Source: an uncultured bacterium (GTDB taxonomy: Bacteria > Cyanobacteriota > Vampirovibrionia > Gastranaerophilales > Gastranaerophilaceae). Taken from it: DNA of 47,471 nt. A program made the translations under genes and the position numbers. The stretch spans positions 1 through 47,471 of the forward strand of contig CADCNV010000007.1 in assembly GCA_902802825.1 (NCBI GenBank), written 5' to 3'. Within the stretch, counting starts at the first letter, position 1. Each line of letters opens with the position of its first letter. This document shows positions 2,937 to 11,989 of this stretch, in pieces. Under the pieces are notes generated by a model, which worked only from the letters and a program-made list of their open reading frames with translations, was not told the DNA's origin and did not search any database.

Positions 2937-2981
2937 GTCGGCATTTATATCCGACATTAGTTTCCTCCCCAAAGCGGGAGG
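2937..2981. repeat. Two adjacent hairpins after pheT
   Basis: GTCGG/CCGAC arms at 2937-2955 are followed by CCTCCC/GGGAGG arms at 2964-2981 ending in GGTACGAA. The second matches the GGGAGGG repeat that flanks the DUF559 gene at 11.5-11.9 kb. The pair may end pheT transcription, but there is no T run. Confidence 0.55.
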
Positions 2982-3050
2982 GTACGAACAGTATATGTAA
3001 CAAATTGTAAACACGAATTTAAACGGCTCAAACTCAAGTATAATCGCTAT

Positions 3051-3070
3051 ATGATATGATATGATATGAT
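3051..3070. repeat. ATGAT pentanucleotide tandem repeat (4 units)
   Basis: Four exact copies of ATGAT lie just downstream of a TATAAT (3039-3044) and 135 nt before the ORF at 3205. The gene-free stretch 2886-3204 holds the two hairpins, this tract and a GTTGGG palindrome; I see no gene in it. Confidence 0.7.
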
Positions 3071-3159
3071 GTGGTGGGGCGGGGCAATCCTTTTGGCTTG
3101 AATGTTTTTATAAATGTACAGGGGAAAACGTTTTTCGAGGATTAAGTACATTTAAGAAA

Positions 3160-11400: not shown

Positions 11401-11462
11401 GAATAAATCGTGAAGACGATAAGACGTCAGGACGATAAGTTCATTAAATAAATTAAAATTGC

Positions 11463-11496
11463 AAAAACGAGAATTTTTAATATAATTCTCGTTTTT
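11463..11496 (+). terminator. Intrinsic terminator after fabG
   Basis: AAAAACGAGAATT (11463-11475) and AATTCTCGTTTTT (11484-11496) form a perfect 13-bp stem ending in a T run. In the 60 nt before it, GACGATAAG occurs twice as a short direct repeat. Confidence 0.9.
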
Positions 11497-11507
11497 GTTA
11501 TGATATT

Positions 11508-11948
11508 CCCTCCCTTTTGAGGGAGGGTCAGGGTGGGTGCTGTTTATAAATTTTGTGTTATCATACAACCATGAATAAATTAACTCTCAATGCAAGAAAT
11601 TTAAGAAAAAATATGACAACCCAAGAAAGAAAGCTTTGGAACATCATAAAAAATAAACAATTTTACAATTATAAATTTTTGCGTCAATATGTCATAGGCG
11701 GATATATTGTTGATTTTATATGCAGAGAAGAAAAAATTATAGTAGAAATAGATGGCGGACAGCATAACCAAAATGAAAATATTAAATATGATAAAAATAG
11801 AAACAAATATCTTGAAAATTTAGGTTATAAAGTAGTAAGATTTTGGAATAATGAAATTGATGATAATATAGAAGGTGTTTATCGAAAATTGCAAGAAATT
11901 TTTATGATAAAAACGGCACCCACCCTAACCCTCCCTCGTAAGGGAAGG
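11508..11948 (+). mobile_element. DUF559 gene flanked by 38-bp inverted repeats
   Basis: The left arm (11508-11545) and the right arm (11911-11948) are inverted copies identical at about 33 of 38 positions by hand alignment. Each arm contains its own CCCTCCC/GGGAGGG hairpin followed by an AGGGTGGGTGC block. They enclose a single ORF whose C-terminal residues are encoded by the right arm. The arm family has another member at 2964-2981. This is the layout of a minimal mobile or repeat-associated endonuclease unit; movement is inferred, not shown. Confidence 0.5.
11556..11564 (+). promoter_or_regulatory. Extended -10 promoter of the DUF559 gene
   Basis: TGT followed by TATCAT (11559-11564), then 6 nt and the ATG at 11571. 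There is no Shine-Dalgarno sequence, so the mRNA is predicted to be leaderless. Confidence 0.45.
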
Positions 11949-11975
11949 TACGAAAAAACAAGTATTAAAAAATGA
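11571..11975 (+). CDS. DUF559 (Vsr-like) endonuclease domain protein
   Basis: A 134-aa protein of the DUF559 family, predicted to have the restriction-endonuclease-like fold of very-short-patch repair enzymes. The pattern LRKNMTTQERKLW, VDFICREEKIIVEIDGGQH (catalytic-type Asp and EIDGGQH), the YDKNRNKYLENLGYKVVRFW block and a following NEI is characteristic. I start at 11571 rather than the upstream in-frame ATG at 11553 because family members begin near this Met and a -10 box lies 6 nt before it. Residues after about 114 (APTLTLPRKGRYE) are read from the right inverted repeat, so the natural domain probably ends just before. The stop overlaps an ATG of the next frame. Biochemical activity of this family is largely unestablished. 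Confidence 0.85.
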   Translation: MNKLTLNARNLRKNMTTQERKLWNIIKNKQFYNYKFLRQYVIGGYIVDFICREEKIIVEIDGGQHNQNENIKYDKNRNKYLENLGYKVVRFWNNEIDDNIEGVYRKLQEIFMIKTAPTLTLPRKGRYEKTSIKK

Positions 11976-11989
11976 AAAAAGGAATAAGT

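Follow-up and report, generated by a model that had tools for sequence, protein, structure and literature searches.

A DUF559 endonuclease gene between inverted triplex-type repeats, probably one member of a widespread mobile pair of nuclease and palindrome

The window, the whole 47,471-nt stretch of DNA that was analysed, is contig C7 of a 1.62-Mb genome. It contains a DUF559 nuclease gene enclosed by two inverted copies of a short GC-rich repeat. The features of the locus, and one related element elsewhere in the window, are the following.

2964..2988, plus strand: degenerate solo half-copy, whose outer end GGGAGGGTACGAA is common to the right arm (GGGAAGGTACGAA)
11462..11497, no strand assigned: terminator-like hairpin, abutted by the unit and present in the empty allele
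11500..11979, plus strand: whole inserted unit, with approximate outer limits based on comparison with the empty allele in a relative (genome G284, locus L293)
11508..11545, plus strand: left arm, triplex-type repeat CCCTCCCT-TTTG-AGGGAGGG-TCA-GGGTGGGT
11571..11975, plus strand: DUF559 (YcjD/NGO0050-like, EDxHD) nuclease gene, 134 aa (Pfam PF04480, E=8.5e-40)
11911..11948, minus strand: right arm, inverted copy, CCTTCCCT-TACG-AGGGAGGG-TTA-GGGTGGGT when read on the minus strand

The right end of the unit is ambiguous by about 5 nt because of an A-run at this position. The terminator-like hairpin is older than the insertion, since the empty allele has it. The initial annotation described the gene as lying between 38-bp inverted repeats with about 33 identical positions, and alignment of 11508-11545 with the reverse complement of 11911-11948 gives this same count (33/38). 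Around the gene the inverted repeat extends to 54 nt with 78% identity. Both arms consist of a hairpin followed by a GGGTGGG block, and in the left arm the hairpin points outward and the third block faces the gene. The arms are predicted to fold as hairpins (z=-4.3 for the left and -1.9 for the right arm). With three mismatches allowed, the two arms are the only places in the window that match the 20-nt sequence of the left hairpin (0 in 100 shuffles). The right arm also encodes the last ~20 codons of the gene, including the C-terminus ...IKTAPTLTLPRKGRYEKTSIKK, as had been annotated. The extended -10 promoter that was proposed for the gene is no better than chance (7 promoter-like sites compared to 4.2 +/- 1.9 in shuffles). 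The solo hairpin that was reported at 2964-2981 has its outer end in common with the right arm but is degenerate, lacks a third block and does not match the left hairpin at three mismatches in the window scan. Two better solo repeats lie outside the window, on contigs C8 and C17; the genome is incomplete and contains seven hairpins and four full copies of the repeat. A different element, the G-rich, leader-like GATATGATGTGGTGGGGCGGGGCAATC, occupies 3063-3089 of the window and is recurrent: a 32-nt form lies 3' of an unrelated gene in three relatives from the genus (L354, L355 and L356:1925-1956).

An AlphaFold2 model of the window protein (pLDDT 89.5) was compared with known structures by Foldseek. 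The matches are NGO0050 (3hrl, E=1e-7) and the catalytic domain of I-Bth0305I (3r3p, E=3e-6), with Vsr weaker. The model thus has a Vsr/EDxHD-like fold, in line with the Vsr-like nuclease initially named, and is predicted to combine the EDxHD fold with the active site of homing endonucleases. The catalytic residues D, E-x-D and H are invariant among DUF559 proteins. In NCBIfam, the protein comes near PRK09767 and stays under the cut-off of that model. The Caulobacter DUF559 protein VsrA is SOS-induced and triggers a DNA-damage response in vivo (PMC12907096), which makes it likely that the family is active.

DUF559 loci were sampled from the family of the window, from other (non-Gastranaerophilales) cyanobacteria as a second clade and from other phyla (80 of at least 579 loci). 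For the contig scan a narrower profile was used, the broad profile being too diverse. Flanks were counted as matched when the local alignment of the left flank with the reverse complement of the right flank scored at least 16; locus L163, which scored only via runs of N, was left out. Matched inverted flanks are present at 130 of 171 DUF559 loci (76%) compared to 10 of 1075 neighbouring genes (0.9%), and several of these ten control genes owe their score to A/T-rich or IS-related matches. This frequency agrees with the parallel to REP sequences and their RAYT transposases that was drawn at the outset. The DUF559 loci with matched flanks comprise 58/75 from the family of the window, 28/40 from other cyanobacteria and 44/56 from other phyla; about 24% of all DUF559 loci have no scored repeat pair.

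The flanking element is a GC palindrome whose sequence is specific to each locus. Among the family loci, 77% of the left and right flanks reach the threshold with their own partner and 10% when partners are swapped between loci. Within 130 nt of DUF559, 149 repeats were counted in 20 kb, compared to 41 in ~794 kb at distances beyond 600 nt, so that repeat density close to the gene exceeds the background ~140-fold. The pairing of DUF559 with this repeat is real and general across many phyla. It appears to be unreported as far as the literature searched shows: no link between the two was found there, subscription papers and bioRxiv lying outside the search. In some cyanobacteria (L142-L145), DUF559 and translated arms are located within open frames of ~1400-1550 codons, possibly restriction enzymes.

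Repeats of the type termed BoxC, PIT or TM have been known in E. coli since the 1990s, occur in more than 260 genomes and are associated with genome instability. To our knowledge, they have no known function, means of spreading or mobility enzyme. They have been described as purine-motif intrastrand triplex elements by Holder et al. 2015 (PMC4666352), who found no mobility genes near them and made no mention of DUF559 or any endonuclease. Judged by their sequence, the repeats flanking DUF559 are of this class. In 192 distinct units, the G-rich third block is a mirror image of the hairpin's purine strand: G faces G, and an A of the hairpin faces A or T (the latter in 309 of 337 cases). The mean mirror score is 0.81, compared to 0.62 +/- 0.012 with tails swapped. 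The left arm in the window scores 8/8 and the right arm has identical B and C blocks. Both groups have the same layout of hairpin, 3-nt loop and mirrored third block, dispersed copies, inverted pairs, and loop-2 sequences that include TTA and CCG; the commonest loops in the present units are TTG, TTA, CTG and CTA. The multicopy character is most pronounced in G025, the richest genome sampled, with 168 dispersed copies. No match was found in Rfam. In contrast to BoxC/PIT/TM elements, the repeat described here is tied to a nuclease gene, and the blocks of the window arms measure 7-8 nt (CCCTCCC/GGGAGGG/GGGTGGG) instead of 9. With such short blocks, the window arms belong to the class but depart from its strict consensus in E. 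coli, CCCTCNCCCN3-6GGGNGAGGGN3GGGNGAGGG.

In E. coli, the DUF559 protein bears the annotation YcjD, and its gene lies between sapF and fabI. The Cedecea gene matched E. coli by tblastn but not as a DNA query. The repeat directly 3' of ycjD is a listed TM-ECO sequence (number 9, also 16, 19 and 22) and is one of 22 such places in a single E. coli chromosome. In strain M00057 the 3' end of ycjD overlaps a fuller TM repeat, from which K-12 has lost 12 nt that are retained in other strains (L323:1830-1870 compared to L319:1345-1385). This loss accounts for the 12-nt length difference noted in PMC12817139. An inverted pair of TM repeats between hrpB and mrcB has its tails directed inward, as in the gene unit, and encloses no gene. 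Its outer end GACCGATCGAGC is common to that of ycjD, GGCCGACCGAGC (consensus G(A/G)CCGA(T/C)CGAGC). This pair is absent in ST131 and a single hairpin is left of it in O111. Strains with ycjD have 12-27 matching places and strains without it 2-17 (p=4e-9, few lineages sampled), yet E. coli of the O157 lineage lack ycjD and still have ~12 copies. The absence of ycjD in O157 and B2 was considered as an empty unit site and rejected, as it is tied to the eefRABCD locus (PMC12817139).

The number of repeats follows the presence of the gene. In the family of the window, the median number of palindromes is 14 in genomes with DUF559 (n=49) and 0 in those that lack it (n=58; p=3e-14, phylogeny partly corrected); a reversed-pattern control gave counts near 0. 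The difference holds within genera g1, g2, g4 and g10, but not in g5; in g2 the counts are 6-168 with and 0-1 without the gene. Other cyanobacteria have 2.4 repeats per Mb with DUF559 and 0.33 without it (p=7e-8, phylogeny partly corrected). Furthermore, 9 of 41 solo repeats are closest to the resident arms of their own genome, where 0.9 would be expected (p=6e-4 in 17 genomes, phylogeny partly corrected). That genomes free of DUF559 are nearly free of repeats favours the gene as the maker of the repeats rather than as a gene that homes to them.

An empty allele of the window site is found in G284, where the gene downstream of the unit is 92-99% identical. Relative to this genome, the unit (~11500-11979) has replaced ~35 bp that resemble the old promoter region of the downstream gene. 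Other members of the genus have kept these ~35 bp, so that the empty site is ancestral. At C8 of the window genome, a solo repeat of ~85 bp is missing from G284, with 98% identical flanks. In E. coli, a filled and an empty allele at lldD-trmL differ by ~24 replaced bp, the direction being unpolarised. The comparison of empty and filled sites suggested in the initial annotation has thus supplied the empty site, but neither clean boundaries nor a target duplication. Unlike at classical IS elements and MITEs, no target-site duplication is seen at the window site and at two E. coli loci, where flanks are replaced; for the C8 solo, a TTT leaves this ambiguous. In the closest relative that has no repeats the gene is missing as well, which again agrees with the parallel to REP and RAYT. 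In other relatives (L289, L291 and L292), a tiny hydrophobic ORF (e.g. MKFCITEKALWLILLIIIALYFTK) with a strong ribosome site is located in this same spacer, between fabG and the TPR gene, and resembles a type I toxin.

In many relatives, a DUF559 unit with both arms is inserted in frame within PriA, IspE, PrmA, a UvrD-like helicase or an M14-like peptidase. These host genes were named from their conserved motifs. The insertion point in PriA is just 5' of the Walker A motif GVTASGKT. The helicase insertion is also present in the window genome itself (C9), and a further unit is located C-terminally in a HydE/BioB-like protein. For PriA and IspE, filled and empty alleles coexist, and the empty alleles of sister genomes have a short variable linker. 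In the DUF559 tree, copies cluster by insertion site (15 changes compared to 38 when shuffled), and at least two entries each are required for IspE and the UvrD-like gene. The host frame stays open through the arms and the nuclease at these in-gene insertions, which would argue against residence in an intron. EDxHD homing endonucleases (I-Bth0305I, Vsr-like) resemble DUF559 in fold, catalytic residues and patchy distribution, and likewise enter recurrent places in conserved genes. They differ in that the DUF559 nuclease and its arms lie in frame within the host protein and that the unit brings its own dispersed repeats.

The window unit is probably a member of a widespread mobile pair, composed of a small EDxHD endonuclease, DUF559/YcjD, and a triplex-forming palindrome of its own (BoxC/PIT/TM). 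For a wider proposal the chances are about even: DUF559 and BoxC/TM would constitute a new, nearly pan-bacterial mobile class, in which the nuclease recognises the folded triplex, spreads single repeats, pairs and repeat-gene-repeat units, and colonises essential genes in frame. The gene-bearing form would be repeat-gene-repeat, with solo repeats and gene-less inverted pairs as its non-autonomous counterparts, in the way that REPs and REPINs relate to RAYT. When the DNA is single-stranded, the repeat strand would fold into the hairpin and its third strand, and the cognate nuclease would cut at or beside the folded repeat, or at the target. Repair of the break would then copy the repeat or the repeat-gene-repeat unit to a new place, often with loss of 10-35 bp of target and no duplication. 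A copying step by host break repair would fit the small target deletions and the missing duplication. Joining of strands is beyond a PD-(D/E)XK nuclease by itself and requires either host repair or an unknown partner. Units whose repeats can be read as coding sequence may persist even in conserved genes. The association is observed; cleavage and the transposition step by DUF559 are what we infer from it.

The passage of the window site from no repeat to a full unit is difficult to reconcile with DUF559 genes as mere passengers, which home into or recombine with inverted pairs that were already in place and had spread otherwise. The gene-less inverted pairs of E. coli, with the same inward-tail geometry, fit such a history, and the nearest characterised relative of the enzyme is a homing endonuclease. 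However, arms match far better within a locus than between loci and repeats are almost missing from genomes without DUF559, and this explanation is considered unlikely. Slightly less probable still is a structure-specific repair or fork-rescue function of DUF559 that makes triplex repeats tolerable, so that they accumulate passively. Polymerases are blocked in vitro by BoxC/PIT elements (PMC4666352), and the SOS induction and DNA-damage response of VsrA are in accordance with such a role. It leaves unexplained, however, why the gene sits between matched copies, moves together with them and enters host genes in frame. The initial annotation had left open whether DUF559 mobilises, repairs or selects for the palindromes; mobilisation is favoured because of the empty sites and the in-frame insertions, and would be the function of the enzyme. 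Overall, the initial reading of a DUF559-palindrome unit is partly supported.

A movement of the repeats by RAYT/TnpA-REP or other Y1 transposases, with DUF559 incidental, is very improbable. Some genomes do have Y1 genes, and among genomes without DUF559 these have a small effect (2 compared to 0 repeats, p=5e-4). In genomes that lack a Y1/RAYT-type transposase, however, the median is 18 repeats with DUF559 and 0 without it (p=3e-11, phylogeny partly corrected), Y1 makes no difference once DUF559 is present (p=0.85), and no Y1 match was found in G025 with its 168 copies. RAYT as the driver of repeat number was rejected on these comparisons. The least credible explanation takes the arms for ordinary transcription terminators or GC palindromes. 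Hairpins are common near gene ends, but matched inverted flanks are rare among the control genes, and neither matched arms nor covariation of a third block is expected of plain terminators. Moreover, PIT elements reportedly have no terminator activity (PMC4666352), and inside PriA and IspE the arms are read through in an open frame.

A close functional parallel is the REP/REPIN-RAYT (TnpA-REP) system, in which a gene likewise lies between inverted cognate palindromes, with many solo copies and mosaic clusters, and solo copy number depends on the gene. The enzyme is a PD-(D/E)XK (EDxHD) nuclease here and an HUH/Y1 transposase there, and a triplex third block stands in place of the GTAG/CGTC tag. 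By eye, no such tag is present in the window arms and the printed units; its position is taken by the short loop 2 and the G-rich third block. As both enzyme and tag differ, the DUF559 pair would resemble REP/RAYT in the way it works without belonging to it. From the pairing, DUF559 gains a likely role, and REP-like repeats gain a second, unrelated route. Since the same pairing is found in many phyla, DUF559 is the first good candidate for an enzyme that spreads BoxC-type repeats. The pairing links BoxC/PIT/TM to a nuclease family of solved structure, and so to a first testable enzyme that is present in E. coli K-12.

Palindromic repeats in frame within unrelated host proteins are also a property of the Rickettsia palindromic elements (RPE, reviewed in PMC10969869). 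RPE differ in their length of ~150 bp and in having no nuclease gene known to be attached. Whole nuclease units in frame in PriA and IspE indicate how such elements can colonise essential genes. In the PrmA open frame of L065, several tandem translated repeats (PLEGGSKSSISGWG...) precede the DUF559 unit, a sign that the repeat has expanded locally within the gene. The ispE gene of the window genome (L325, C37) contains two other in-frame inserts, CHCEEFNNKILRGKILCHSEQSVESENFTPLN and NNTPPTALRATSPFQGAES, which suggest that more families of in-frame repeats exist in this lineage.
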